Source: Terracoccus sp. 273MFTsu3.1
Lineage (GTDB): Bacteria; Actinomycetota; Actinomycetes; Actinomycetales; Dermatophilaceae
Length of the DNA: 64,000 nt
Direction of reading: 5' to 3'
NCBI RefSeq assembly: GCF_000383675.1
Contig: NZ_KB911821.1
Location: forward strand, 310,001 to 374,000
Shown: piece by piece, positions 10,665-35,000 of the stretch
Numbering within the stretch: position 1 is the stretch's first letter
Layout: the number at the start of each line of letters is the position of its first letter
Program-made: the position numbers and the translations under genes
The notes under the pieces: generated by a model
What the model saw: only the letters and a program-made list of their open reading frames with translations
Told to the model about the DNA's origin: nothing
The model's database searches: none

Positions 10665-11361
10665 GGTGCACCTGCCCCGCGTCGTCCTCGTCACGGGCAC
10701 CGACACCGACGTGGGCAAGACCGTCGTCTCGGCGGCCGTCGTCGCCACGGCACGGGCCGCAGGACGCAGCGTCACGGCATACAAGCCCACGCAGACCGGG
10801 GTGGCACCCGGCGAGCCGGGAGACATGGCCGAGGTGGAGCGACTGACGGGCGTGGCGACCGTCGAGGGCGTGCGCCTTCGGGCGCCCATGGCGCCGAGGC
10901 CGGCAGCCGCCCTCGAGGGCGCGGTCCTGCCCACCCTGGCCGACCACGTGGCCCGCGTCGCGGACCTGGTCCGCGATCACGACCTCGTCGTCGTCGAGGG
11001 CGCGGGCGGTCTGCTCGTCGAGCTCACCGACGCCGGTGAGACGCTGGCCGACCTCGCGACCGTCCTGCCGGACAGCGGGGTGCTCGTCGTCGCCCGCAGT
11101 GCGCTCGGCACTCTCAACCACACCATGTTGACGCGAGAAGCACTGTCCCACCGAGGAGTCCGGCCGCTCGGCATCGTCATCGGCGCGTGGCCGGACCATC
11201 CCGACGTCATCGAGACGACGAACCGCGACTACCTCGGCGCGCTTCCCGAGGGCCTGGTCGGCGCCGTGCCGCTCGGTGCCCCGCGCCTCGACGCGGCGAT
11301 CTTCACCGCCGACGCTCCCGACTGGCTGCCGGGACTGGCTCAGCGCCTCGGGACACCCTGA
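10657..11361 (+). CDS. bioD: Dethiobiotin synthetase
   Basis: ATP-dependent carboxylase of 234 residues that closes the ureido ring of 7,8-diaminopelargonate to give dethiobiotin for BioB. The P-loop GTDTDVGKTVVSAA is at residues 12-25, VVEGAGGLLVEL near 112 supplies the Mg/ATP contacts, and SALGTLNHTMLTREAL near 150 is family typical. Last gene of bioBAFD. It starts inside the bioF tail and its last 22 bases overlap the end of cimA on the other strand, leaving no room for a separate terminator between the two convergent units. Confidence 0.96.
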   Translation: MTEVHLPRVVLVTGTDTDVGKTVVSAAVVATARAAGRSVTAYKPTQTGVAPGEPGDMAEVERLTGVATVEGVRLRAPMAPRPAAALEGAVLPTLADHVARVADLVRDHDLVVVEGAGGLLVELTDAGETLADLATVLPDSGVLVVARSALGTLNHTMLTREALSHRGVRPLGIVIGAWPDHPDVIETTNRDYLGALPEGLVGAVPLGAPRLDAAIFTADAPDWLPGLAQRLGTP

Positions 11362-12929
11362 CGCAGCAGACCGTGCACGATGCCGTCGGTGAGAGCACGC
11401 CACGACGCGGCGAGGATCGAGCCGGCGACACCGATGGTGTCCCACGACGTCTCACCGTCGGACGTCTCGATGAGCACGCGCGTCACGGCGTCGGTGCCGT
11501 GCGAGGCGTCGAGGATGCGCACCTTGAAGTCGATGAGCTCGATCTTCTCGATCTCGGGGTAGGCGCGGGCCAGGGCCTCGCGCAGCGCGTGGTCGAGCGC
11601 GTTGACCGGACCGTTGCCCTCGCCCGTCGCGATGAGGCGGGCGCCGTCGGCACGCAGCTTGACGGTCGCCTCGGACGTCGCGTCACCCTCGCCCGAGGAG
11701 TCGGTGATGACCCGCCAGGACTCGACCTCGAAGTAGTCGGTGCACCCCGGCTCGAGCGCCTCGCGGAGCATCAGCTCGACCGTCGCGTCTGCGGCGTCGA
11801 ACGTCCAGCCCCGCAGCTCGAGGTCCTTGACCTCGGCGAGCACGGCGGCGACGACGTCGGGTCGGTCGGACAGGTCGAGCCCGGCCTCACGGGCCTTGAG
11901 CTCGATGCTCGCGCGCCCGGCCATGTCGGAGACGAGGGTGCGCATGCCGTTGCCGACGAGCGACGGGTCCATGTGCTGGTAGAGGTCGGGGTCGACCTTG
12001 AGCGCGCTCGCGTGCAGACCCGCCTTGTGCGCGAAGGCGCTGGCGCCGACGTAGGGCTGGCGGCTGTAGGCGGGGACGTTGGTCACCTCGCTGATGGCGT
12101 GCGCGATGTGCATGGCCCGGCGGAACGAGTCGGGCTCCATGGCGTCGAGCCCCAGCTTGAACTGGAGGTTGGCGGCGACCGTGAGCAGGTCGGCGTTGCC
12201 GGTGCGCTCGCCGTAGCCGTTGACGGTGCCCTGGACGTGGGTCGCCCCGGCCCGGACCGCCGCGACGGAGTTGGCGGCCGCGCAGCCGGTGTCGTTGTGG
12301 CAGTGGGCGCCGACGCGAGCACCCGTCGAGGCGATGACGTCAGCGACGACCTCCTCGACCTGGTGCGGGAGCATGCCCCCGTTGGTGTCGCACAGCACGA
12401 CGACCTCGGCGCCGGCGTCGTGCGCGGTGCGCACGACCGAGAGGGCGTAGTCGCGGTCGAGGTGCCAGCCGTCGAAGAAGTGCTCGCAGTCGAGGAAGAC
12501 GCGGCGACCCTGGGCGACGAGGTGCCCGACCGTGTCGCGGACCATCTCGAGGTTCTCCTCGAGCGTCGTGCGCAGGGCCCGTTCGACGTGGCCGGTGTGG
12601 GACTTCGCGACGAGGCACACGACCGACGCCTCGGAGTCGACGAGGGCACGCACGAGGGGGTCCTCCGCCGCGACCCCGCCGGCGCGACGGGTGGCCCCGA
12701 AGGCGGCGAGGGTCGCGTGACGCAGGTCGAGCTCGGTGCGGGCCCGCTCGAAGAACTCGGTGTCCTTCGGGTTGGCCCCGGGCCAGCCGCCCTCGATGAA
12801 GTCGACCCCGAGATCGTCGAGCAGCCCGGCGATGGCGAGCTTGTCCGACACCGAGAGGTTGAGCCCCTCCTGCTGGGCGCCGTCGCGCAGGGTGGTGTCG
12901 TAGACGTGCAGCGCTTCCATGGCCTTCAT
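11340..12929 (-). CDS. cimA: Citramalate synthase
   Basis: A 529-residue HMGL-like acyltransferase of the CimA branch that condenses pyruvate and acetyl-CoA to citramalate, the entry to threonine-independent isoleucine synthesis. YDTTLRDGAQQEG at the N terminus, DFIEGGWPGANPKD near 45, CDTNGGMLPHQVEE near 165 and GAHCHNDTGCAAANS near 193 are the substrate and metal site blocks. A LeuA-like dimer/regulatory domain fills the C terminus from about 390. ATG 12929 has GAGG just upstream; ATG 12920 is an alternative. A leader peptide and attenuator lie 140-240 bases upstream. The 3' end overlaps bioD. Confidence 0.94.
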   Translation of the reverse strand: MKAMEALHVYDTTLRDGAQQEGLNLSVSDKLAIAGLLDDLGVDFIEGGWPGANPKDTEFFERARTELDLRHATLAAFGATRRAGGVAAEDPLVRALVDSEASVVCLVAKSHTGHVERALRTTLEENLEMVRDTVGHLVAQGRRVFLDCEHFFDGWHLDRDYALSVVRTAHDAGAEVVVLCDTNGGMLPHQVEEVVADVIASTGARVGAHCHNDTGCAAANSVAAVRAGATHVQGTVNGYGERTGNADLLTVAANLQFKLGLDAMEPDSFRRAMHIAHAISEVTNVPAYSRQPYVGASAFAHKAGLHASALKVDPDLYQHMDPSLVGNGMRTLVSDMAGRASIELKAREAGLDLSDRPDVVAAVLAEVKDLELRGWTFDAADATVELMLREALEPGCTDYFEVESWRVITDSSGEGDATSEATVKLRADGARLIATGEGNGPVNALDHALREALARAYPEIEKIELIDFKVRILDASHGTDAVTRVLIETSDGETSWDTIGVAGSILAASWRALTDGIVHGLLRQGVPRR

Positions 12930-13071
12930 TGTCCTCGATCTCGGGGGTTCGGCCGACCGCCGGTTCAGGGGCGGGCGACGCGGGTGTGGGAGGCGTTCCG
13001 GTCTCTTCTCGTGGTCGCGGCGGCCGGGGTGGTGGCCTTCGCGGTGTCTCCCTCGGGGTGGTTCGGGAAAC

Positions 13072-13099
13072 AAAAAGACCCCCCAGGGTTGGGAGGTCT
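13072..13099 (-). terminator. Intrinsic terminator (attenuator) in the cimA leader
   Basis: AGACCTCCC and GGGGGGTCT form a 9-bp stem (13076-13099, one G-T pair) followed on the minus strand by TTTTTG. It stands between the short leader peptide and cimA, about 140 bases before the cimA ATG, so it would end transcription early unless an alternative fold forms. Confidence 0.8.
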
Positions 13100-13100
13100 G

Positions 13101-13123
13101 CGCGACGAGGGGTGCTCGTCGCG
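13101..13123 (-). promoter_or_regulatory. Hairpin directly after the cimA leader peptide
   Basis: CGCGACGAG (13101-13109) and CTCGTCGCG (13115-13123) give a perfect 9-bp stem with a 5-base loop. It begins one base after the TAG of the leader peptide, where a stalled ribosome would disrupt it. It is the likely pause or anti-terminator partner of the terminator at 13072-13099. Confidence 0.65.
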
Positions 13124-13168
13124 CTATTCGATAATGAGGGTGCCGGTAGGCACGGGTCGCTTCATCAC
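13124..13168 (-). CDS. cimA leader peptide
   Basis: A 14-codon reading frame (GTG ATG AAG ... CTC ATT ATC GAA TAG) encoding MMKRPVPTGTLIIE if the GTG is used, or 13 residues from the ATG. The last codons before the stop are Leu-Ile-Ile, fitting control by branched-chain aminoacyl-tRNA supply for an isoleucine-pathway gene. TACCGT (13180-13175) is six bases before the GTG, so translation probably starts on a leaderless message. The stop codon is followed immediately by a hairpin and then an intrinsic terminator. It is too short for gene callers. Known parallels are leuA and ilvB leaders; a cimA leader is inferred here. Confidence 0.7.
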   Translation of the reverse strand: MMKRPVPTGTLIIE

Positions 13169-13174
13169 ACGCTC

Positions 13175-13205
13175 ACGGTAGGGCTCGCGAAACATCCGCG
13201 AAACA
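13175..13205 (-). promoter_or_regulatory. Promoter of the cimA leader with a 9-base direct repeat
   Basis: The -10 TACCGT (13180-13175) has TTTCGC (13203-13198) 17 bases upstream. CGCGAAACA occurs at 13186-13194 and again at 13197-13205, 11 bases apart, so both copies face the same side of the helix and one covers the -35. This looks like a transcription-factor site on top of the attenuator. Confidence 0.5.
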
Positions 13206-13218
13206 GCACGTCCGGATC

Positions 13219-13236
13219 GTGGGACCGTCGTCCCAC
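13219..13236. terminator. Candidate terminator hairpin after the amine operon
   Basis: GTGGGAC and GTCCCAC form 7-bp arms with a 4-base loop, 71 bases past the stop of the C26 hydrolase gene. No T tract follows. It would separate the long amine operon from the cimA leader. Confidence 0.45.
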
Positions 13237-13306: not shown

Positions 13307-14020
13307 TCATCGGCTCGTGCCGGCGGCCTCCACGAGGGCCCGGAAGAGGCGCGGGTCCGTGCCCACCTCCGGGTGCCACTGGACGGCGAGCCGGAAGAAG
13401 GCGTCCGGGTCCTCCATCGCCTCCAGCGTGCCGTCGTCAGCCCACGCCGAGGCCTCGTAGCCCGGGTGGGTCAGGACGGACTGGTGGTGGTAGCTCGGCA
13501 CGTCGGCCTCCTCGCCGAGGATCTCGGCCAGCCGGGTCCCCACGACGGTGCGCACCGCGTGGTTGCCGTACGTCGCCGGCGCCGGTGAGTGCTCGTCGTG
13601 GCCGACGCGGTCGGGCACGTGCTGCTCGAGGAGCCCCCCGGCCGCGACCGCCATGACCTGCATCCCCCGGCAGATGCCGAGGACCGGCAGGTCGGTTCCC
13701 GCCGTCGCCCGGGCGATGGCGAGCTCCGTGGAGTCCCGGTCGGGACGCGAGGCCTGGACGGAGGCGTGCCGTTCGTCCGCGTAGAGCTCGGGCGCCACGT
13801 CGACCCCACCGGCGAGGATGACGCCGTCGAGGCGCTCGACGATCTCGAGCGCCGTCCCGTCGTCGAAGTCCGGGCGCGGCGGGATGACGATCGCGATCCC
13901 GCCCGCCTCCTCGACCTGTCGGACGTAGCGGTGCGGCACGAGGGCCCCGGGCACGTCGACCCAGCGACCCCACGACGCACGCTCGACGTAGGCGGTGATC
14001 CCGATGACCGGACGACCCAT
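13307..14020 (-). CDS. Gamma-glutamyl-gamma-aminobutyrate hydrolase family (peptidase C26)
   Basis: A class I glutamine-amidotransferase-fold hydrolase of 237 residues, PuuD-like, expected to cleave gamma-glutamyl amides to glutamate plus a free amino acid. The nucleophile elbow GICRGMQVMAV near residue 115 carries the catalytic Cys, and YHHQSV near 180 and QWHPEV near 215 carry the His and Glu of the triad. The ATG is preceded by GGAGGAGG. It is the last gene of the eight-gene minus-strand operon, 32 bases after the SDR, and would perform the final release step of the gamma-glutamylation route. Confidence 0.9.
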   Translation of the reverse strand: MGRPVIGITAYVERASWGRWVDVPGALVPHRYVRQVEEAGGIAIVIPPRPDFDDGTALEIVERLDGVILAGGVDVAPELYADERHASVQASRPDRDSTELAIARATAGTDLPVLGICRGMQVMAVAAGGLLEQHVPDRVGHDEHSPAPATYGNHAVRTVVGTRLAEILGEEADVPSYHHQSVLTHPGYEASAWADDGTLEAMEDPDAFFRLAVQWHPEVGTDPRLFRALVEAAGTSR

Positions 14021-14052
14021 GACGACCTCCTCCTCCAGCGTCCCACTCGCCC

Positions 14053-14820
14053 TCAGAGCGGCGTGACGTACGCGCCCGAGATGCCGCCGTCGACGAGGAA
14101 GGTCGACGCCGTGATGAAGCTGGACTCGTCGGAGGCGAGGAAGAGCACGGCGTTGGCCATCTCCTCCGGCTCGCCGAACCGGCCCATCGGCACGTGGACG
14201 AGGCGCCGCGCGGCGCGCTCCTCGTCCTTGGCGAAGAGCTCCTGGAGGAGCGGGGTGTTGACCGGACCGGGGCACAGGGCGTTGACGCGGACCCCCTCCC
14301 GGGCGAACTGCACGCCGAGCTCGCGGGACATCGAGAGCACGCCGCCCTTGCTCGCGCTGTAGGAGATCTGCGACGTCGCCGCGCCCATGACGGCGACGAA
14401 CGAGGCCGTGTTGATGATCGAGCCCTTGCCCTGCTCGAGCATGTAGGGCAGGGCGGCCTTGCAGCACAGGTAGACCGACGTGAGGTTGACCTCCTGCACC
14501 CTGCGCCAGGCGTCGAGGTCGGTGTCGAGGATCGAGTCGTCCTCGGGCGGGCTGATGCCGGCGTTGTTGAACGCGATGTCGACCGAGCCGTACGTCTCCT
14601 TGGCCGTGCGGAAGAGCGCGTCGACGTCCTCCTTGCTCACGACGTCGACCCGCACGAACGTGCCGCCGACCTCCTCGGCGATGCGGGTGCCGTTCGCCTC
14701 GTCGAGGTCGCCGATGACGACCTTCGCGCCCTCCTCGGCGAACCGCCGCACGGTCGCGAGACCGATGCCCGAGCACCCGCCCGTGATGACCGCGACCTTG
14801 CCGTCGAGCCTGCCTGCCAT
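14053..14820 (-). CDS. Short-chain dehydrogenase/reductase (SDR)
   Basis: Classical SDR of 255 residues using NAD(P). The cofactor motif TGGCSGIG is at residues 13-20, NNAG near 90, and the catalytic Ser plus YSASKGG (Tyr-x3-Lys) lie near 140-160. The Asp in IGDLDE near 38 suggests preference for NAD. Substrate is not evident from sequence. In the operon it sits between the aldehyde dehydrogenase and the C26 hydrolase, so an alcohol or hydroxy intermediate of the amine route is likely. The E. coli Puu pathway has no SDR, so this is an addition to that scheme. Confidence 0.9.
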   Translation of the reverse strand: MAGRLDGKVAVITGGCSGIGLATVRRFAEEGAKVVIGDLDEANGTRIAEEVGGTFVRVDVVSKEDVDALFRTAKETYGSVDIAFNNAGISPPEDDSILDTDLDAWRRVQEVNLTSVYLCCKAALPYMLEQGKGSIINTASFVAVMGAATSQISYSASKGGVLSMSRELGVQFAREGVRVNALCPGPVNTPLLQELFAKDEERAARRLVHVPMGRFGEPEEMANAVLFLASDESSFITASTFLVDGGISGAYVTPL

Positions 14821-14869
14821 GTGATTCCCTTCCAGCCCAGTGGATCTACGTGTTGGTGTGCGTCGACCG

Positions 14870-16243
14870 TCAGTCGGTCGAGATGAAGACGTTCTTGACC
14901 TCGGAGAACGCGTCGAGCGCGTCGGGGCCGAGCTCGCGGCCGATCCCGCTCTGCTTGAAGCCGCCGAACGGCGTCGAGTAGCGGACGCTGCTGTGCGAGT
15001 TGACGGAGAGGTTGCCGGCCTCGACAGCACGCGCGACCCGCAGGCCGCGACCGATGTCGCGGGTCCAGATGGACCCCGACAGGCCGTATGCCGTGTCGTT
15101 GGCCTTGGCGACCGCGTCGGCCTCGTCGTCGAACGGCATGACCGCGACGACGGGGCCGAAGACCTCCTCCTGCCAGACCCGGTCCGTCGTCGAGCGCGGC
15201 AGGACGACCGTCGCGGGATACCAGTAGCCGCTTCCCTCGGGGGCATCCCCGCGGAAGGCGACGTCGACGTCCTCGGTGGCGTCCTCGACGTAGGAGCGCA
15301 CCGTGTCGCGCTGCCCGGAGCTGATGAGCGGCCCCATCTCGGCGGCCTCGTCGCGAGGGTCGGTGACGACGACGCCGCGCACCGCCGTCTCGAAGTGCTC
15401 CATGAAGGTGTCGAAGGCGCTGCGCTCGACGAGGATGCGGCTGCGCGCGCAGCAGTCCTGGCCGGCGTTGTCGAAGACCCCGTACGGGGCCCGCGCCGCG
15501 GCGAGCTCGAGGTCGGAGTCGGCGAAGACGATGTTGGCGCTCTTGCCGCCGAGCTCGAGGGTGACGCGCTTGACCTGGTCGGCGGCCCCGCGCATGATCC
15601 GCTGGCCGACGGCCGTGGAGCCGGTGAAGCAGACCTTGCGCACGTCGGGATGCGTGACGAAACGCTCCCCGACGACCGTGCCCTTGCCGGGGACGACGGT
15701 GAAGACCCCCTCGGGGATCCCGGCCTCGAGCGCCAGCTCACCGAGGCGGACCGCGGTCAGCGGGGTCAGCTCGGCAGGCTTGAGCACGACCGTGTTCCCG
15801 GCGGCGAGCGCCGGCGCGAATCCCCAGCCGGCGATCGGCATGGGGAAGTTCCACGGGACGATGATGCCGACGACCCCGAGCGGCTCGCGGAACGTGACGT
15901 CGATCCCGCCTGCGACGGGGATCTGCCGGCCGAAGTGCCGCTCGGGCGCCCCGGAGTAGTACGCGAGGACGTCGCGGACGTTGCCCGCCTCCCAGCGTGC
16001 GTTGCCGATCGTGTGGCCGGCGTTCTCGACCTCCAGCTGGGCGAGCTCCTCCTGGTGCTCGCCGACGAGGTCGGAGAAGCGGCGCAGGAGCAGCGACCGG
16101 TCGGCGGGGCTCACGGCGCGCCACGCGGGGCTCGCGGCCGAGGCCCGGGCGATCGCGGCGTCGGTCTGCTCCAGCGAGGCGAGCTCGACGGTGCGGACCA
16201 CCTCCTCGGTGGCCGGGTTGATGACGTCGTGCGTGGTGGTCAC
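14870..16243 (-). CDS. Aldehyde dehydrogenase, PuuC-like
   Basis: NAD(P)-dependent aldehyde dehydrogenase of 457 residues. VPWNFPMPIAGWGFAPALAAGNT near 140 (given here as VPWNFPM and APALAAGNTVVLKPAE) binds cofactor, FTGSTAVGQ near 210 is the Rossmann turn, LELGGKSANIV near 235 holds the general-base Glu, and QDCCARSRI near 270 has the catalytic Cys. Its GTG overlaps the TGA of the glutamine-synthetase-like gene, so the two are co-translated. The predicted job is oxidation of the gamma-glutamylated aminoaldehyde to the acid before hydrolysis. The SDR follows 49 bases downstream. Confidence 0.92.
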   Translation of the reverse strand: MTTTHDVINPATEEVVRTVELASLEQTDAAIARASAASPAWRAVSPADRSLLLRRFSDLVGEHQEELAQLEVENAGHTIGNARWEAGNVRDVLAYYSGAPERHFGRQIPVAGGIDVTFREPLGVVGIIVPWNFPMPIAGWGFAPALAAGNTVVLKPAELTPLTAVRLGELALEAGIPEGVFTVVPGKGTVVGERFVTHPDVRKVCFTGSTAVGQRIMRGAADQVKRVTLELGGKSANIVFADSDLELAAARAPYGVFDNAGQDCCARSRILVERSAFDTFMEHFETAVRGVVVTDPRDEAAEMGPLISSGQRDTVRSYVEDATEDVDVAFRGDAPEGSGYWYPATVVLPRSTTDRVWQEEVFGPVVAVMPFDDEADAVAKANDTAYGLSGSIWTRDIGRGLRVARAVEAGNLSVNSHSSVRYSTPFGGFKQSGIGRELGPDALDAFSEVKNVFISTD

Positions 16244-17607
16244 AGTCGCTCGAATCCTCTCCTGCGCTCCCAGTCGGTGACGGCAGCGTTGAAGGCCGTG
16301 ATCTCGACGTCGGCGGCGTTGACGTAGTGGTCGACGACCTCGTCCCCGAAGGCCTTCCGGGCGATGGCCGACCCCGCGAGCAGGTCACGGGCCTCCTGGA
16401 GCGTCGAGGGCACGCGTGGCTTGTCCGACGTGTAGGCGTTCCCCTCGAGCGCCGGCTCGAGCTCGAGCTCGTGCTCGATGCCGTGGAGGCCCCCGGCGAG
16501 CATGGCCGCGACGGCGAGGTAGGGGTTGAGGTCACCGCCACCGATGCGGTTCTCGACGCGCAGGCCGGCTCCGTGGCCGACGACGCGCAGCGCGCACGTG
16601 CGGTTGTCGCGGCCCCACGCCACCGTCGTCGGGGCGAAGCTCGCCGATGCGAATCGCTTGTACGAGTTGATGTTCGGCGCGTAGAAGTAGGTCAGCTCAC
16701 GCTGCGTCGCGAGGATGCCGGCGAGGAAGTGCTCGAACATCGCGCTGTGCCCGTGCTCGCGCTCCTCGTCGACGAAGACGGTCTCTCCGTCGAGGCCGCG
16801 CAGCGAGAGGTGGATGTGGCACGAGCTGCCCTCGCGCTGGTCGAACTTGGCCATGAAGGTCAGGGACTGGCCGTGGTGGGCCGCGATCTCCTTGGCCGCG
16901 TTGCGGTAGACGACGTGGTTGTCGCAGGTGCGCACCGCCTCGTCGAAGAGGAAGCCGATCTCGTGCTGGCCGTAGTTGCACTCGCCCTTGGCGCTCTCGA
17001 CGACGGCACCGGCGGCATACATCTCGTTGCGAATCTCGCGCAGCAGCGGCTCGACGCGGTCGCCCCCGAGGATCGAGTAGTCGACGTTGTAGCGGTTCGC
17101 CGGGGTCAGGCCCGTGTAGTTCGCGTCCCAGGCCTGCTCGTAGGACTCCTGGAAGACGATGAACTCGAGCTCGGTGCCGCAGTGCGCGGCCATGCCGAGC
17201 CCGGCGGCCCGGTCGACCTGCGCCTTGAGCACCGACCGGGGCGACTGCGCCACGGCGCCGCTGCCGTCGAGCCAGGTCAGGTCGCACTGCACGGTGGCCG
17301 AGTGACGGCTGCCGGGCGTGCGCCGCAGGGTGTCGAGGTCGAGGTCGAAGAACATGTCGCCGTAGCCGCGCTCCCACGAGGAGATGGCATAGCCGTCGAC
17401 GGTGTTCATGTCGACGTCGACGGCGAGGAGGTAGTTGCAGCCCTCGGTGCCGTCCTCGAGCACGTGGTCGAGGAAGTAGTGGCCGTGCAGACGCTTGCCC
17501 TGCAGCCGCCCCTGCATGTCGGTGAAGGCGACGACGACGGTGTCGATGTCGCCGGACTCGATCTCCTCGCGGAGCCGGTCGAGCGTGAGCGTGGGTGTGG
17601 GCGCCAT
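16240..17607 (-). CDS. Glutamine synthetase-like gamma-glutamyl-amine ligase
   Basis: Type I glutamine synthetase fold, 455 residues, resembling PuuA/GlnA3-type ligases that couple glutamate to amines with ATP rather than fixing ammonia. GTELEFIVF near 145, KGECNYGQHEIGF near 205 and SSCHIHLSL near 262 carry the metal and glutamate ligands. APTTVAWGRDNRTCALRVVG near 330 (ending in the Arg-rich phosphate contact) and VENRIGGGDLNPYLA near 365 are conserved. Its company (amine-type permease, FAD oxidase, aldehyde dehydrogenase, C26 hydrolase) supports gamma-glutamylation of an imported amine over nitrogen assimilation. The exact amine is unknown. Confidence 0.88.
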   Translation of the reverse strand: MAPTPTLTLDRLREEIESGDIDTVVVAFTDMQGRLQGKRLHGHYFLDHVLEDGTEGCNYLLAVDVDMNTVDGYAISSWERGYGDMFFDLDLDTLRRTPGSRHSATVQCDLTWLDGSGAVAQSPRSVLKAQVDRAAGLGMAAHCGTELEFIVFQESYEQAWDANYTGLTPANRYNVDYSILGGDRVEPLLREIRNEMYAAGAVVESAKGECNYGQHEIGFLFDEAVRTCDNHVVYRNAAKEIAAHHGQSLTFMAKFDQREGSSCHIHLSLRGLDGETVFVDEEREHGHSAMFEHFLAGILATQRELTYFYAPNINSYKRFASASFAPTTVAWGRDNRTCALRVVGHGAGLRVENRIGGGDLNPYLAVAAMLAGGLHGIEHELELEPALEGNAYTSDKPRVPSTLQEARDLLAGSAIARKAFGDEVVDHYVNAADVEITAFNAAVTDWERRRGFERL

Positions 17608-17626
17608 GTCGTGCCTTCCTGTCGTC

Positions 17627-18355
17627 TCAGCCGATGAGGCCACGGAGCAGCGCGGAGGTGGCATCGCAGTGCTCCTCCATGACCGCCCGGGCGCGTTCCG
17701 CGTTCCCGCCGAGGATGGCCCCGACGATCTGGTGGTGCTGGGCGTTCGAGTGCTCGATGTTGCGTCGGAGCACGGGGATCGCCATGAGCATGTCGTGCAG
17801 GGCCGCCTGCGACCGCGTCACGGCGTCGATGAGCATCGGCGACCCGGAAAGGGTCGCGACGGCCAGGTGCAGGCGCGAGTCGGCGACGCGGTGCGCGGAG
17901 GGGTCGGGGGCGTCGTCGACCTCGGCGAGGCTGTCGGCGAGCCACGCCCGTTGGTCGCCGGCGAGCGACTGGGTCGCCGCGAGCCAGGCGGCCCCGGGCT
18001 CGACGACGCGGCGGAAGGTCAGCGCGTCGCGCATGGCAGCGCCGCTGCGGACGAAGGCGCCGGAGGTGCTCGAGGGCAGCTCGGCGGACTCGGTGACCCA
18101 CGTGCCCCCGCCACGACCTCGTCGGGTCGTCACCAGGCTGGAGTCCCTCAGTGCCGCGATCGCCTCGCGCAGCGTGTTGCGGCTGACGCCGAGCCGTTCG
18201 GCGAGCTCGCGCTCCGGCGGGAGCTGCTCGCCCCGGCTGAAGACGCCGAGCCGGATGGCCGTCGCGAGCTGCTCGACGGTGCCCTCGAAGACGTTGCCGG
18301 TGGCGGGTCGCAGCACGACGTCAGGCAGGGACGGCTGTCGTTCGGCTGCACTCAC
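17627..18355 (-). CDS. GntR-family (FCD/FadR-type) transcriptional regulator
   Basis: Regulator of 242 residues with an N-terminal winged helix (LPPERELAERLGVSRNTLREAI near residues 48-68, core ERLGVSRNTLREA) and an all-helical FCD domain from about residue 100 whose histidines (HRVADSRLH, HHQIVGAI) usually bind a metal or carboxylate ligand. GTG 18355 is chosen because TTGACG-N17-TTGGAT ends six bases before it; ATG 18409 would add 18 residues encoded by the operator region. It is embedded in the amine operon and probably controls it through the AATGGT/ACCATT inverted repeat just upstream. Confidence 0.87.
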   Translation of the reverse strand: MSAAERQPSLPDVVLRPATGNVFEGTVEQLATAIRLGVFSRGEQLPPERELAERLGVSRNTLREAIAALRDSSLVTTRRGRGGGTWVTESAELPSSTSGAFVRSGAAMRDALTFRRVVEPGAAWLAATQSLAGDQRAWLADSLAEVDDAPDPSAHRVADSRLHLAVATLSGSPMLIDAVTRSQAALHDMLMAIPVLRRNIEHSNAQHHQIVGAILGGNAERARAVMEEHCDATSALLRGLIG

Positions 18356-18361
18356 GTGTCG

Positions 18362-18410
18362 ATCCAATACCGTCACCTCCACCTCGTCAATGGTCTGAGA
18401 AAGCACCATT
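18362..18410 (-). promoter_or_regulatory. Internal promoter and operator before the FCD regulator
   Basis: TTGACG (18390-18385) and TTGGAT (18367-18362) form a promoter with a 17-base spacer. AATGGT (18389-18394) and ACCATT (18405-18410) make a perfect 6-bp inverted repeat with a 10-base centre that begins at the -35 edge. The site overlaps the stop codon of the preceding flavoprotein gene. Autoregulation by the adjacent GntR-type protein is the simplest reading. Confidence 0.6.
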
Positions 18411-20880
18411 AGGGCTTGTCGGACCCAGCCTGCCGGAGTCGCAGGCCCTCCGGGTCGAGCGGGGCCCGGAGCCCCACCGTCAGGGGACTTCGGTGGCCCG
18501 CGATGTCGATCTCCCACTCCCCCGTGCGTACCCACTCCGCCGCGGCCCCGCCCGTCCCCCGCTCCCCGACGAGCGCCAGCCCGACGCCGGCCGCCACGGT
18601 CGCCCCCCACGCCGCGCTCGTCACCTGGCCGACGGGTCGACCGTCCCTCAGGACGAGCTCACCGCCCCACGGGTATGCCTCCGGGTCCCCCACGACGAAG
18701 GACACGAGCCGTCGCGGCGGGGTCACGACCTTCGCGGCCTCGACCGCCTTCCGTCCGAGGAAGTCGACGTCCGTGCCGAGCTTGCAGGCGAAGGCCAGCC
18801 CGGCCGCCACGGGACCGGTCTCGGTCGTCAGCTCGCGCCCGAACGCGCGGTAGCCCTTCTCGAGCCGCATCGCCTCGATCGCGTAGTAGCCGGCCGGCAG
18901 CACGCCGAGGTGGGCGCCCGCACGGAAGAGGTCGTCGTAGACCCTGACGGCGAGCTCGGTCGGCACGTAGAGCTCCCACCCGAGCTCACCGACGTACGTG
19001 ATCCGGGTCGCCCGCACGACAGCCGACCCGAGACGCACCTCGCGGCTCGTGCCGAACGGGAAGGACGCGTCGTCGAACGAGTCGTCCGACAGGCCCGACA
19101 GCAGGTCGGCCGAGCGGGGTCCCATGACGCCCAGGACGGCATACGCGCTCGTGACGTCGACGACGCTCGCATCGGCGCCGACGGGGACGTGCCGCCTCAG
19201 CCAGTCGAGGTCGCGCACCGTGGTGGCCGCGCTGCTGACGACGAGGAACTCGCGGTCGGCGGTCCGGGTCACGGTGACGTCGGACTCGTAGGTGCCCCCA
19301 CCGTTGAGGACGCCCGTGTAGACGGTGCGCCCCACGGGGACGGCGACGTCGGCCGTGCAGATCCACTGCAGCGCCCGCTCGGCGTCCGCGCCGACGATGA
19401 GGTACTTCGAGAAGGACGTCTGGTCGAAGACGGCAACCGCCTCGCGCGTGGCCCGCTGCTCCGCGACACACCAGTCCACCCAGGTCGGCCGATCCCACGA
19501 GTAGTCGAGCCGCGGCGACCGCCCTTGCGGCGCAAAGACGTTGGCACGCTCCCAGTGGTTGCGGGTGCCGAACACCGCCCCCTGGGTGACGAGCCGGTCG
19601 TGCACCGGCGAGAGCCGCTGCGCGCGGCCCGTCTCGGGCTCGCGGTTGGGCCACGGCACGGCGTAGTGCAGGCCCAGCACCTCGACGACGCGCTCGTGCA
19701 GCCAGGCGTGGTTGCCGGCGAGCGGCGAGAAGCGACGGATGTCGGCGCTGACGAGGTCGAGCGTCGGACCGCCCTCGACGACCCACTCGGCCAGGGCGCG
19801 TCCGGCACCCCCTGCGCTCGCGATCCCCACCGAGTTGAAGCCCGCCCCGACGAAGAATCCCGGCAGCTCGGGCGCCTCGCCGACGATGAACTGGTTGTCG
19901 GGGGTGAAGCTCTCGGGGCCGTTGTAGAACTTGCGGATCCCCGTCTCGGCCAGCACCGGCAGGCGGTGGATCGCGCTCTCCATGAGCACCTCGAAGTGCT
20001 CCCAGTCCTCGTCGAGGAGCGCGAACTCGAAGGGGTACGGGATCCGGTCGGGCGAGACCCACGGCTTGGCCTCGGGCTCGAAACCGCCGACGAGGAGACC
20101 CCCGACCTCCTCCTTGACGTAGGTCCAGCCGTCGGGGTCGCGCAGCACGGGCAGGTCGCGGTGCACGCCCTCGATCGGCTCGGTCACGACGTAGAAGTGC
20201 TCCGCCGAGTGGAGCGGGACGTTGACCCCGGCCATCGCACCGACCGCCCTCGCCCACTGACCGGCACAGTTGACGACGACGTCGGCCTCGACGTCTCCGT
20301 GGTCGGTGCGCACGCCCGCGGCCCGTCCGTCACGCGTCAGCACGTCCGTGACCCGGACCCGCTCGGTGATGCGCACGCCGAGCTGCCGGGCCCCTTTGGC
20401 GAGGGCCTGGGTGAGGTCGGTCGGGTTGGCCTTGCCGTCACCGGGGAGCCAGATGGCGCCGACGACGTCGTCGACCCGGATGAGCGGGTAGCGCTCGCGC
20501 GCCTGATCGGGCGTCAGCAGCTCGCAGTCGAGGTCGTATGCCGCCGCGCTGGCCGCCGTGCGCCGCAGCGCGACCATGCGCTCGGGGGTGCGGGCCACGG
20601 TCAGGCCGCCGCAGACCCGGTACCCGGTGCCGAGGCCCGTCTCGGCCTCGAGGCGCGAGTAGAGGTCGGTCGAGTACTGCACGAGCCGGGTCCCGGCCTC
20701 GCTCGCCCGCAGCTGGCCGACGAGCCCGGCAGCGTGCCACGTCGTCCCGCAGGAGAGGCTGCCCTGCTCGACGAGGAGCACGTCGGTGCGGCCGAGATGG
20801 GCCAGGTGGTAGGCGACGCTGGCGCCGATGACACCGCCACCGATGACGACGATCTCGGCGCGAGAAGGAAGCTCGGTCAT
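18409..20880 (-). CDS. FAD-dependent oxidoreductase fused to a GcvT (folate-binding) domain
   Basis: An 823-residue protein with the dimethylglycine/sarcosine dehydrogenase layout. The N-terminal DAO domain has the dinucleotide motif VIGGGVIGASVAYHLA (12-27) and TTWHAAG, whose His at about 49 is the covalent FAD site in relatives. The C-terminal aminomethyltransferase domain (about 430-815) keeps SDVTVTR with the Asp that contacts tetrahydrofolate, YVGELGWELY near 640 and RLEKGYRAFGRELT near 685. Relatives oxidise N-methyl amines and pass the methyl carbon to folate. It takes the place of the plain PuuB-type oxidase in this operon, so the substrate may carry N-methyl groups. ATGA overlap with the kinase gene upstream. 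Confidence 0.9.
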   Translation of the reverse strand: MTELPSRAEIVVIGGGVIGASVAYHLAHLGRTDVLLVEQGSLSCGTTWHAAGLVGQLRASEAGTRLVQYSTDLYSRLEAETGLGTGYRVCGGLTVARTPERMVALRRTAASAAAYDLDCELLTPDQARERYPLIRVDDVVGAIWLPGDGKANPTDLTQALAKGARQLGVRITERVRVTDVLTRDGRAAGVRTDHGDVEADVVVNCAGQWARAVGAMAGVNVPLHSAEHFYVVTEPIEGVHRDLPVLRDPDGWTYVKEEVGGLLVGGFEPEAKPWVSPDRIPYPFEFALLDEDWEHFEVLMESAIHRLPVLAETGIRKFYNGPESFTPDNQFIVGEAPELPGFFVGAGFNSVGIASAGGAGRALAEWVVEGGPTLDLVSADIRRFSPLAGNHAWLHERVVEVLGLHYAVPWPNREPETGRAQRLSPVHDRLVTQGAVFGTRNHWERANVFAPQGRSPRLDYSWDRPTWVDWCVAEQRATREAVAVFDQTSFSKYLIVGADAERALQWICTADVAVPVGRTVYTGVLNGGGTYESDVTVTRTADREFLVVSSAATTVRDLDWLRRHVPVGADASVVDVTSAYAVLGVMGPRSADLLSGLSDDSFDDASFPFGTSREVRLGSAVVRATRITYVGELGWELYVPTELAVRVYDDLFRAGAHLGVLPAGYYAIEAMRLEKGYRAFGRELTTETGPVAAGLAFACKLGTDVDFLGRKAVEAAKVVTPPRRLVSFVVGDPEAYPWGGELVLRDGRPVGQVTSAAWGATVAAGVGLALVGERGTGGAAAEWVRTGEWEIDIAGHRSPLTVGLRAPLDPEGLRLRQAGSDKP

Positions 20881-32987: not shown

Positions 32988-34847
32988 TCAGTCCTCCCGC
33001 TCCCAGACCGGCGCCTCGTGGCGCGCCGCCTGGATCATGTCGTTGCTGACACCGGCCGGCACCATCGGCCACACCATGGCGTCCCGGTGCACGATGAAGT
33101 CGATGACGACCGGGCGGTCGTTGGTCTCGAGCGCCTGCTTGATGACGGCGTCGACCTCCTCGGGCGTCTCGGCCCGCAGGCCGAGGCAGCCGTACGCGTC
33201 GGCGAGCTTGACGAAGTCGGGCACGCGCTGGCTCATCGGCTGCAGGTCGGTGTTGGAGTAGCGCTCGTTGTAGAAGAGGGTCTGCCACTGCCGGACCATG
33301 CCGAGCGAGCTGTTGTTGATGATCGCGACCTTGATCGGGATGTTGTTGATGACGCAGGTGGCGAGCTCCTGGTTCGTCATCTGGAAGCAGCCGTCGCCGT
33401 CGATGGCCCAGACCGTGCGCTCGGGCTCGGCGACCTTGGCGCCCATGGCCGCCGGGACCGAGAAGCCCATCGTGCCGAGGCCACCGGAGTTGATCCACGC
33501 GTTCGGGCGTTCGTACTTGACAAACTGCGCGGCCCACATCTGGTGCTGGCCGACACCTGCCACGTAGGTCGCCTCCGGTCCGGTGAGTGCACCGATCCGC
33601 TCGATGACGTACTGCGGCGAGAGCGTGCCGTCCTCACTGTCGGTCCAGCCGAGCGGGAACGTCCGCTTCCAGTCGGCGACCCGATCGCGCCAGTCGGCGT
33701 AGTCCCAGGCATCGGTGTCGTCGTCCGCCGTCGCTCGGTCGAGCGTGATCTGCTCGATGAGGTCCTTGATGACCTCGCCCACGTCCCCGACGATCGGCAC
33801 GTCGGCGATGCGGTTCTTGGAGATCTCGGCGGGGTCGATGTCGGCGTGGATCACCTTGGCGTGCGGGGCGAACGTCGAGAGCTGGCCGGTGACGCGGTCG
33901 TCGAAACGGGCACCGAGCGCGATGAGCAGGTCGGACTTCTGCAGGCCCGTCACCGCGGCGACCGTGCCGTGCATGCCGGGCATGCCGAGGTTGAGCGGCT
34001 CGCTGTCGGGCACCGTGCCACGCGCCATGAGGGTCGTCACGACGGGGATGCCGGTCAGCTCGACGAGCCGGCGCAAGGCGTCGCTGGCGCGGGCGCGCAC
34101 GACGCCGCCGCCGACGTAGAGGACGGGCCGCTTGGCCGCCGCCATGAGGCGCGACGCCTCACGGATCTGCTTGCCGTGCGGACGGAGCACGGGACGGTAG
34201 CCGGGCAGGTCGATCTGCGGCGGCCAGCTGAAGGTCGTCGTCGCCTGGAGCGCGTCCTTGCTGATGTCGACGAGGACCGGGCCGGGGCGGCCCGTGCTCG
34301 CGACGTGGAACGCCTCGGCGATCGCCTGCGGGATCTTCGCCGGGTCGGTCACGAGGTAGTTGTGCTTCGTGATCGGCATCGTGATGCCGCGGATGTCGGC
34401 CTCCTGGAAGGCGTCCGTGCCGATGGCGCCGCTCGCGACCTGACCGGTGATGGCGACGACGGGCACGGAGTCCATGTGCGCGTCGGCGAGCGGCGTCACG
34501 AGGTTCGTCGCGCCGGGCCCCGAGGTCGCCATGCAGACGCCGACCCTGCCGGTCGCCGACGCGTACCCCTCGGCCGCGTGGCCGGCACCCTGCTCGTGGC
34601 GCACGAGGATGTGACGGACCTTCTTGGAGTCGAGCATCGGGTCGTAGGCGGGCAGGATCGCGCCGCCGGGGATCCCGAAGACCGTGTCGCAGCCGATGGC
34701 CTCGAGGGAGAGTACGAGCGCCTGCGCCCCGGTGACCTCACGGGCCGGCGTGACGGGCCCGACGGGCTTGGCCTCCGCCGCGGGTCGGGGACGGGCCAGG
34801 GAGGCCACGTCGGCGGGCGAGGGCGCCTGCTTCGTCGTGTCGCTCAC
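32988..34847 (-). CDS. ilvB: Acetolactate synthase large (catalytic) subunit
   Basis: ThDP-dependent catalytic subunit of 619 residues that makes acetolactate or acetohydroxybutyrate. The Glu of the active site is in [12 protein letters not shown] near 60 and [13 protein letters not shown] near 87, the FAD-binding middle domain contains [11 protein letters not shown] near 310, and the ThDP/Mg motif is [15 protein letters not shown] with the NNSSLGM end near 500. GTG start with GGAAGAG upstream. A leader peptide and attenuator lie 60-190 bases before it. The N terminus has a Pro/Ala-rich extension of about 30 residues, as in other actinobacteria. Confidence 0.97.
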
Positions 34848-34906: not shown

Positions 34907-34942
34907 AAAAAAACCCTCCGGTCCCGCGGTGGGACGGAAGGG
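34907..34942 (-). terminator. Attenuator terminator of the ilvBN leader
   Basis: CCTTCCGTCCC and GGGACCGGAGG pair (one mismatch, one G-T) around a small loop at 34914-34942, followed on the minus strand by seven T residues (34913-34907). It ends about 60 bases before the ilvB start, downstream of the leader peptide. Confidence 0.88.
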
Positions 34943-34973
34943 AGCGCGCTGACCGTTCGAGCTGGTCGGCGCG
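34943..34973 (-). promoter_or_regulatory. Pause or anti-terminator hairpin of the ilvBN leader
   Basis: Directly after the leader peptide stop, GCGCGC-C-GACC pairs with GGTC-A-GCGCGC around the AGCTCGAAC loop. It is the alternative partner expected between a leader peptide and an attenuator. Confidence 0.6.
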
Positions 34974-35000
34974 CTAGGGAAGTACGAGGAGTCGGGCCAC
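34974..35000 (-). CDS. ilvBN leader peptide
   Basis: Nine codons, GTG GCC CGA CTC CTC GTA CTT CCC TAG, encoding MARLLVLP. Four of eight residues are Leu or Val, as expected for attenuation by branched-chain aminoacyl-tRNA. GACGGT (35012-35007) is six bases upstream of the GTG and a perfect TTGACA 17 bases further, so the leader is itself translated from a leaderless message. An alternative ribosome site AGGAC also lies upstream. A hairpin and a T-tailed terminator follow. Comparable leaders are known before ilvB in Corynebacterium and Streptomyces. Confidence 0.8.
   Translation of the reverse strand: MARLLVLP

Follow-up and report, generated by a model that had tools for sequence, protein, structure and literature searches.

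Citramalate synthase, the product of cimA, opens the threonine-independent route to isoleucine and serves as a tool enzyme in metabolic engineering. In the window analysed here, a DNA stretch of 64,000 nucleotides, a short reading frame and two hairpins precede cimA on the same strand, and an initial annotation took them for a peptide-controlled attenuator. The locus thus raises three questions: whether these elements belong together and control cimA, which amino acid they would respond to, and how the first hairpin could oppose the second.

The leader before cimA and its sibling before ilvB

The elements of the cimA locus are, in the order of transcription:

13175–13180, minus strand: −10-like hexamer TACCGT, 6 nt 5′ of the GTG start; probable leaderless promoter
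13124–13168, minus strand: frame of the leader peptide VMKRPVPTGTLIIE, followed by the stop; start GTG 13168 or ATG 13165, TAG 13126–13124
13140–13153, minus strand: P0, small hairpin GTGCC-TACC-GGCAC inside the leader frame
13138–13130, minus strand: control codons CTC ATT ATC within the leader frame
13100–13124, minus strand: P1, hairpin GCGCGACGAG-CACCC-CTCGTCGCGC, the proposed starvation-state hairpin, whose first base is the G of TAG
13072–13099, minus strand: T, intrinsic terminator AGACCTCCCA-ACCC-TGGGGGGTCT with U run, predicted from sequence
11343–12929, minus strand: cimA, citramalate synthase; start ATG 12929 or in-frame ATG 12920

The name given to the downstream gene proved correct, as its product passes the cut-off of the citramalate synthase model TIGR00977 (615 bits against 450). 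The protein is 99% identical to those of Terrabacter sp. Ter38 and Root85, with a placement in Intrasporangiaceae, Micrococcales, Actinomycetes. The leader frame reads GTG ATG AAG CGA CCC GTG CCT ACC GGC ACC CTC ATT ATC GAA TAG on the minus strand; it has 14 codons from the GTG or 13 from the ATG, and ends in CTC ATT ATC GAA TAG as first described. The first hairpin had also been recognised, but P1 has 10 base pairs (13124–13115 with 13109–13100, loop of 5 nt) and not 9, because the G of TAG pairs. The 9-bp version begins on the base immediately after the stop, and not one base past it. T abuts P1 with 0 bases between them. Its stem (13099–13076) is followed by the T run 13076–13072 and a G, which is the second stem with the TTTTTG tail of the initial annotation. 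The distance from the end of T to ATG 12929 is about 142 nt, where 140 had been given. An N-terminal extension of cimA in frame from TTG 13073 was considered and rejected: that frame is not kept in close relatives, because the distance from T to cimA is 146, 147, 148 and 145 nt in L002–L005.

The arrangement before cimA is not due to chance. The folding energy of positions 13205–13060 is −61.9 kcal/mol, compared with a mean of −42.6 for shuffled sequences (z −5.55; 0 of 200 shuffles as low). The pattern TAGCGCG N8–38 CGCGC N14–42 TTTT has two matches in the 4.94-Mb genome, both of them inside the window, one preceding cimA and the other ilvB; the reversed pattern, used as control, has one match. 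Rfam release 15 gave no match at the gathering score within the window. For T-boxes, the negative result is that of this Rfam scan. In a relaxed search, the best weak match of the cimA leader was Phe_leader, with 21 bits against a gathering score of 55 (E 0.28).

The second match of the pattern belongs to a sibling leader:

34907–35000, minus strand: ilvB sibling leader, with the frame MARLLVLP followed by the stop; start GTG 35000, TAG 34976–34974
34974–34944, minus strand: P1 of the sibling leader, with T reaching to 34914 and the U run at 34913–34907
33033–34847, minus strand: ilvB, acetolactate synthase large subunit; start GTG 34847, read from the sequence

The ilvB product is recognised by TIGR00118 with 749 bits against a cut-off of 538 (matched place 34733–33033). 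Its leader scores 24.1 bits with the covariance model R1 presented below. The exchange of Ile for Val/Leu codons within one architecture and one genome amounts to a natural specificity experiment.

Conservation, covariation and spread

Loci found with the CimA protein were examined first for the arrangement; the set consists of the best 80 of 567 loci, 79 of which have upstream sequence (L076 has none). The frame, P1 and T precede cimA in 73 of these 79. A script that required a stop codon, P1, T and a frame, with a gap of −2 to 6 allowed between P1 and T, found the set in 71 of the 80 loci, and the covariance model added L060 and L073. The leader is absent in L052, L065, L072, L074, L077 and L081; the last five, of Nocardioides type, were judged by the script and by eye, and not with the model. 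Carriers include Terrabacter, Humibacillus, Knoellia, Pedococcus, Phycicoccus, Janibacter, Flexivirga, Nostocoides and Nocardioides. In each of the 71 leaders found by the script, P1 and T are separated by 0 or 1 base.

P1 and T covary in the aligned leaders. In an alignment of the window with 49 of the 71 script-found loci (alignment A1, 50 sequences), 97.7% of the pair cells hold standard pairs, against 42–59% for slid structures. Both sides have changed in 9 of the 19 pairs, namely in 6 of the 10 pairs of P1 and in 3 pairs of T, and the four outermost pairs of P1, GCGC with GCGC, are invariant throughout. The covariation score is 0.254 and drops to 0.130 upon shuffling, and none of 500 shuffles scored as high; 27 of the 500 reached the value for further pair types, the weakest of the measures. 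In a second alignment of 92 model matches, aligned by the model (A2), both sides have changed in 13 of the 19 pairs, a figure biased towards the model to which the sequences were fitted. The relatives therefore behave as the initial annotation had anticipated: the short frame and its Ile codons are kept, and compensatory changes are found in both stems.

The covariance model R1 was built from the window and the same number of script-found loci (49 of the 71) with a zero linker, and the statistics on the P1–T linker are for that reason taken from the protein-found sets. Within the class, R1 has matches at E 0.01 or better in 227 of 394 genomes, which belong to 97 of 138 genera. Among the 310 of the 394 genomes in which cimA is present, 218 have an R1 match and 92 have none; 9 genomes of the class have a match but no cimA. 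The downstream gene was checked for 89 matches and is cimA in 84 (the window's own included) and ilvB in 5. The 30 best of these, the window's own among them, all precede cimA, and the remaining 59, spread over families, precede cimA in 54 cases and ilvB in 5. Twenty cimA-bearing genomes without an R1 match were inspected by eye; they were picked among the strongest cimA matches, with one family (f36) contributing half. Eighteen of them show no leader, and two (L221 and L225) have leaders missed by the model. In L223, L226 and L228, cimA comes directly after an upstream coding frame, without a leader. L211–L220 and L230, mostly of family f36, are mostly large genomes with a cimA that has no recognisable leader.

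In a phylum-wide sample, 51 of 198 genomes have an R1 match at E 0.001. Twenty matches outside the class precede ilvB in 14 cases and cimA in 4, and 2 are unclassifiable. All three elements, frame, P1 and T, can be clearly made out in about 12 of the 20, including two of the four cimA places (L278 and L282); the finder described below was blank for L273, L279 and L280, and the frames are doubtful in L277, L289, L291 and L292. In the upstream regions of ilvB from 40 genomes, found with the IlvB protein, P1, T and a frame were seen in 37, several of them doubtful. Judged from these sequences, the leader arrangement is conserved over much of the actinobacteria. L290 has the same architecture with a leucine-rich peptide, MKEISAPTATLLLT, and its contig stops before a nameable gene.

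Control codons, ribosome position and the two hairpins

Individual leaders were delimited with a finder that allowed a P1–T linker of −1 to 3 and gave a bonus to −10-like boxes. It yielded 156 rows for cimA and 43 for ilvB, corresponding to 151 and 42 distinct leaders; the rows are not independent, because some leaders are identical and many are related. By eye, several of the ilvB rows appear spurious, L231, L232, L235 and L252 at least. The finder was blank for 7 of 206 sequences: L112, L139, L144 (wrong stretch cut), L205 (cimA), and L249, L258 and L259 (ilvB). The window's ilvB leader, L112, is represented among the rows by an entry with a different name. Fifteen leaders outside the stop rule of the script were read separately.

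The control window was defined as the codons beginning 3–16 bases 5′ of P1. It contains Ile in 151 of the 156 cimA leaders, and Ile makes up 355 of the 642 control-window codons before cimA. Val occurs in the control windows of 37 of the 156 leaders. Sensing of both isoleucine and leucine charging had been proposed; the isoleucine part stands, whereas leucine sensing is not supported, because Leu is found in the control window of only 45 of the 156. Before ilvB, the control windows hold 67 Val, 57 Leu and 15 Ile among 196 codons (43 rows). The proportions are kept when distinct leaders only are counted, with 343 Ile of 621 codons before cimA, and 66 Val, 55 Leu and 14 Ile of 191 before ilvB. 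The control codons thus follow the pathway, as cimA serves isoleucine and ilvB serves all three branched-chain amino acids. They are often codons that are rare in ordinary genes. ATT accounts for 160 of the 355 leader Ile codons; in the coding sequences of 79 cimA genes its share is 24 of 1292, and in six genes of the window 1 of 108. Before ilvB, GTA is used for 51 of the 67 Val codons, compared with 2 of 348 in the six genes of the window.

Two layouts of the frame were found. The stop codon lies at the foot of P1 in 132 of the 156 cimA leaders, including that of the window, and the frame enters or crosses the 5′ arm of P1 in 24 of the 156 and in 28 of the 43 ilvB rows. In leaders of the latter kind (for example L159 and L194), the Ile codons stand, by eye, at about the same distance from P1. 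The peptide varies in length and outside the Ile codons, and the P1 loops vary in length and sequence. A hairpin of the P0 type, with at least 5 Watson–Crick pairs, is present in 39 of 48 leaders with a long interval between T and cimA (codon-shuffled mean 7.2). Long intervals are those of 95 nt or more, mostly in Intrasporangiaceae, the loci being grouped by distance and not by tree. The loop of P0, NACC, is almost fixed and its stems are exchanged (GTGGC/GCCAC, GCCGC/GCGGC, GTGCC/GGCAC). In the remaining leaders P0 is not above chance (8 of 108, compared with 7.6 in codon shuffles).

A hexamer with A at position 2 and T at position 6 is found 6–7 nt 5′ of an in-frame start in 140 of the 156 cimA leaders, where shuffled sequences give a mean of 17 and, over 200 runs, a maximum of 31. 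Among the ilvB rows, 41 of 43 have such a hexamer (4.9 in shuffled sequences). These counts are somewhat flattered, as the choice of the frame favoured −10-like boxes. A P1–T linker of −1 to 1 is found in 149 of the 156 cimA leaders and in 34 of the 43 ilvB rows; for the linker, the search was rerun on the sequences already passed, with a range of −4 to 15 and no linker penalty.

The effect of the ribosome on the hairpins was modelled by letting it cover 16 bases from the first base of the P-site codon. Three positions were tried on the 151 cimA leaders that possess an Ile codon. With the first Ile codon in the A site, the predicted pairing of P1 was at least 0.7 in 130 leaders and at most 0.3 in 4. 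With the last Ile codon in the A site, it was at least 0.7 in none and at most 0.3 in 43, with a median of 0.43. With the stop codon in the A site, it was at most 0.3 in all 151. Before ilvB, P1 was free at the first control codon in 38 of 42 leaders and blocked at the stop in 42 of 42. A switch would work only with the ribosome waiting on the first control codon, the place where uncharged tRNA should hold it. At all three positions, T was predicted with a probability of 0.5 or more in 150 of 151 cimA leaders and 39 of 42 ilvB leaders. Equilibrium folding therefore gives no switch, as T is predicted to be folded wherever the ribosome stands; in the model the formation of P1 varies with the position of the ribosome, yet P1 shares no arm with T and does not displace it. 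Peptide-controlled attenuation of cimA, as initially annotated, is thus supported by the comparison of relatives, but not in its textbook form. No classical shared-strand antiterminator was found by folding or by swap tests, the latter being of low power because many leaders share nearly identical arms.

The mechanism that is proposed starts from features established by comparing the leaders: the frame, its codons, the covarying P1 and T, their short junction, the leaderless spacing of the −10 box and the fit to the positions of the ribosome. We consider it likely that they constitute a transcription attenuator mediated by the ribosome, through which the charging of Ile-tRNA would determine cimA expression. 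Transcription would start at or beside the leader start codon, giving a leaderless mRNA. With charged Ile-tRNA, the ribosome would reach the stop codon and cover the 5′ arm of P1. P1 would then not form, T would fold, and transcription would end before cimA. When Ile-tRNA is short, the ribosome would wait on the first Ile codon, ending just short of P1 or barely inside it, so that P1 could fold before T is made and RNA polymerase would read into cimA. By the logic of feedback, P1 should favour read-through, because in both layouts of the frame a ribosome that finishes translation would hide P1 and a stalled one would spare it. The leader probably lets the cell make CimA only when isoleucine is short. 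We infer that T terminates transcription in the cell and that isoleucine starvation relieves this termination.

Since P1 and T overlap by no more than one or two bases, abutment would be the most likely way in which P1 opposes T. Completion of T in the exit channel of the polymerase would require melting of the base of P1; the almost invariant GCGC clamp at this base would resist melting, and the lower stem of T would be kept from closing. This step of the mechanism is put forward tentatively, at a little under an even chance. If P1 acts by abutment alone, a terminator could be switched without a shared strand, unlike attenuators as they are usually drawn.

It is unlikely that an alternative helix forms instead between segments of P1 or of the frame and T, as an antiterminator pairing. 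There is a precedent in the ilvB-II motif of Corynebacterium, for which PMC10272879 proposes pairing of the P1 loop region with the right shoulder of the lower P2. In Terrabacter, the P1 loop and the start of the 3′ arm, ACCCCUC, could by eye pair with GGGGGGU of T. The P1 loop and 3′ arm reach −6 kcal/mol or lower with the 3′ arm of T in 131 of the 156 cimA leaders, with a mean of −9.1, compared with −16.3 for the two arms of T itself. Native pairs were slightly stronger than swapped ones for the frame with the 3′ arm of T, both before cimA (−8.95 against −8.77, sd 0.10) and before ilvB (−7.91 against −7.49, sd 0.21), and for the 5′ arm of P1 with the 3′ arm of T before cimA (−4.40 against −4.23, sd 0.05). 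In this low-power test, the advantage of native over swapped combinations did not exceed about 0.4 kcal/mol for any pairing between an arm of T and P1 or the frame, and before cimA the P1 loop and 3′ arm paired less well with their native T 3′ arm (−9.14) than with swapped ones (−9.78), as did the P1 loop (−5.21 against −5.39). The persistence of T at each ribosome position in 150 of 151 cimA leaders and 39 of 42 ilvB leaders, and the differences between P1 loops in length and sequence, also argue against such a helix.

Because of the low power, and of the 131 leaders that reach a duplex of −6 kcal/mol, a weak or transient alternative between P1 and T may exist. Classical antiterminators drawn by eye, either with the P1 loop or 3′ arm pairing with the 3′ arm of T or with C-rich P1 loops mimicking the 5′ arm of T, were dropped: individual sequences were suggestive, but the loops are variable and the swapped controls were equal or stronger. 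Also left out of the proposal is a possible pairing in Nocardioides between T and the Shine–Dalgarno region of cimA, which by eye have the word CGAGAG in common.

Pause hairpins are normal parts of attenuators, and P1 might be a pause hairpin only, coupling ribosome and polymerase while the Ile codons slow the ribosome, with no antitermination. A pausing role is given to the apex of H1 in the ilvBNC leader of C. glutamicum (PMC11857589). The pause-only reading is improbable for P1, as it offers no step by which starvation would raise read-through, and the junction of 0–1 nt with T, present in every one of the 71 protein-found leaders, is not obviously required for pausing alone.

Antitermination by abutment can be extended to both genes. 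An ancient two-hairpin attenuator of Actinomycetota, set before ilvB with Leu/Val codons and before cimA with Ile codons, would then act by purely abutting antitermination, that is, with a junction of 0–1 nt, no shared arm, and steric or topological exclusion at the polymerase exit channel. This extended reading is plausible, but we lean somewhat against it. For the cimA attenuator itself, a counter-point is the lack of an R1 match in 92 of the 310 cimA-bearing genomes of the class.

Leader-peptide attenuation of ilvB is known or has been predicted for Corynebacterium, Mycobacterium and Streptomyces (PMC1262725, PMC10272879, PMC8079986). The sibling leader is therefore partly known (ilvB-II motif; ilvL of S. 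lividans), and the ilvB results presented here widen that knowledge. The cimA leader is apparently a new, Ile-codon relative of these ilvB attenuators. As in the initial annotation, which knew of none, no described cimA leader was found in full-text literature, which is weak evidence since subscription papers mostly lay outside the search.

In the ilvB-II motif (PMC10272879), P1 is followed by P2, an intrinsic terminator, and a frame with branched-chain codons spans most of P1; a reporter in B. subtilis was high in minimal and low in rich medium. The cimA leader likewise has two stem-loops, the second a predicted terminator, and an upstream frame with branched-chain codons. It differs from that motif, found before ilvB in Corynebacterium, in preceding cimA in a Terrabacter genome and in having Ile codons. 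It also differs in the place of the stop, at the foot of P1 in 132 of the 156 cimA leaders, and in the pairing of the loop with P2 proposed there (PMC10272879), for which the low-power swap test gave no support here.

The nearest described case is ilvBNC of C. glutamicum. Its leader start is one base from the transcription start, a likeness to the leaders here, and its antiterminator and terminator hairpins stand side by side with an overlap of three bases, compared with about 0–1 base for P1 and T (PMC11857589). It differs in having three hairpins, one of them an anti-antiterminator overlapping with the antiterminator, and in using control codons for three amino acids, where those of the cimA leader are for Ile. 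Loss of the ilvB leader start codon in C. glutamicum lowers expression by 80%, an effect opposite to that predicted for the cimA leader (PMC11857589). Substituting possible control codons of S. coelicolor ilvB was reportedly without effect (PMC1262725), and in the ilvB leader of C. ulcerans, replacement of Val by Glu at one of several control codons made no difference (PMC10272879).

The ilvL leader of S. lividans, MRTRILVLGKRVG, comprises a leaderless peptide, hairpins and a U-rich stretch before ilvBHC, and resembles the ilvB leaders here whose frame enters P1; among the eight leader peptides listed in that source, none precedes cimA (PMC8079986). The LEU element before actinobacterial leuA has in common with the cimA leader a short frame with branched-chain codons before the gene of a related synthase. 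It differs by a pseudoknot, the base stem of which pairs the Leu codons with the leuA Shine–Dalgarno box, and it is described without a terminator (PMC1262725), whereas the cimA leader has the predicted terminator T. If the attenuator reading is true, cimA gains a regulator across much of a large class where searches found none described.

Promoter motifs and neighbouring sequences

In five loci that have no leader (L065, L077, L081, L227 and L229), a −10-like box was seen by eye 7–10 nt 5′ of the cimA start; these loci can be regarded as natural deletions or unleadered forms. Since some relatives without a leader carry a similar box at the cimA start, the one 5′ of the leader seems to be the promoter of cimA itself. 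The simplest reading of these sequences would be that the leader was gained or lost between the promoter box and cimA.

A further motif, [TG]A[GC][ACG]AT, is found between T and cimA in 28 of 47 long-interval loci, where 5.4 are expected. It is not enriched in short-interval loci, which are mostly from Nocardioides (1 of 26, with 1.3 expected). In the window, a −10-like motif of the form GACAAT/GAGAAT lies 3′ of T at 12928–12933 (minus strand), in Terrabacter at leaderless spacing before ATG 12920; the same motif is present in 13 loci between L007 and L038, 53–221 nt before the annotated start. It is a possible second promoter of cimA. Part of the transcription of cimA may bypass the attenuator, because this promoter-like motif stands between T and cimA in long-interval loci, and the switch may be bypassed in this way in the window's own family. 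The initial annotation had named cimA transcription from a start 3′ of the terminator as a refutation, and such a start may exist in the long-interval loci.

The motif 3′ of T, together with an upstream gene on the same strand, would also suit a T that terminates the upstream operon (a cluster ending at 13307), with an incidental P1 and a cimA promoter further downstream. This is very improbable, as a −10-like box stands 5′ of T at leaderless spacing in 140 of the 156 leaders, the frame, Ile codons and P1 are kept together with T before cimA, a parallel set with Leu/Val codons precedes ilvB, and the mostly Nocardioides short-interval group shows the motif at no more than the expected frequency. 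That the unit, with its own promoter-like box, frame and terminator, is a free-standing small RNA or micro-peptide gene acting in trans and adjoining cimA by chance is scarcely credible, given a peptide that varies in length and outside its Ile codons, the position of all 89 checked places of the class before cimA or ilvB, and the promoter-like box at cimA itself in some relatives without a leader.

The upstream cluster (13307–20880, minus strand) encodes a gamma-glutamyl-GABA hydrolase-like protein, a weak match with 77 bits against a cut-off of 266, and an SDR dehydrogenase; judged from sequence alone, it also has genes for an aldehyde dehydrogenase, a glutamine synthetase-like enzyme and an FAD oxidase. 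It looks like a cluster for polyamine or amine catabolism. Between this cluster and the leader, CCACGATCCGGAC at 13210–13222 (minus strand), 5′ of the cimA leader, is a possible operator. The one pattern with which such an operator was looked for, CCACNATNYGGAC, has two matches in the genome (one for the reversed control), upstream of the cimA leader and upstream of the frame L271, which we take to resemble an ammonium transporter. Words similar to CCACGATCCGGAC (CCACCATGCGGAC) precede the leaders of several relatives.
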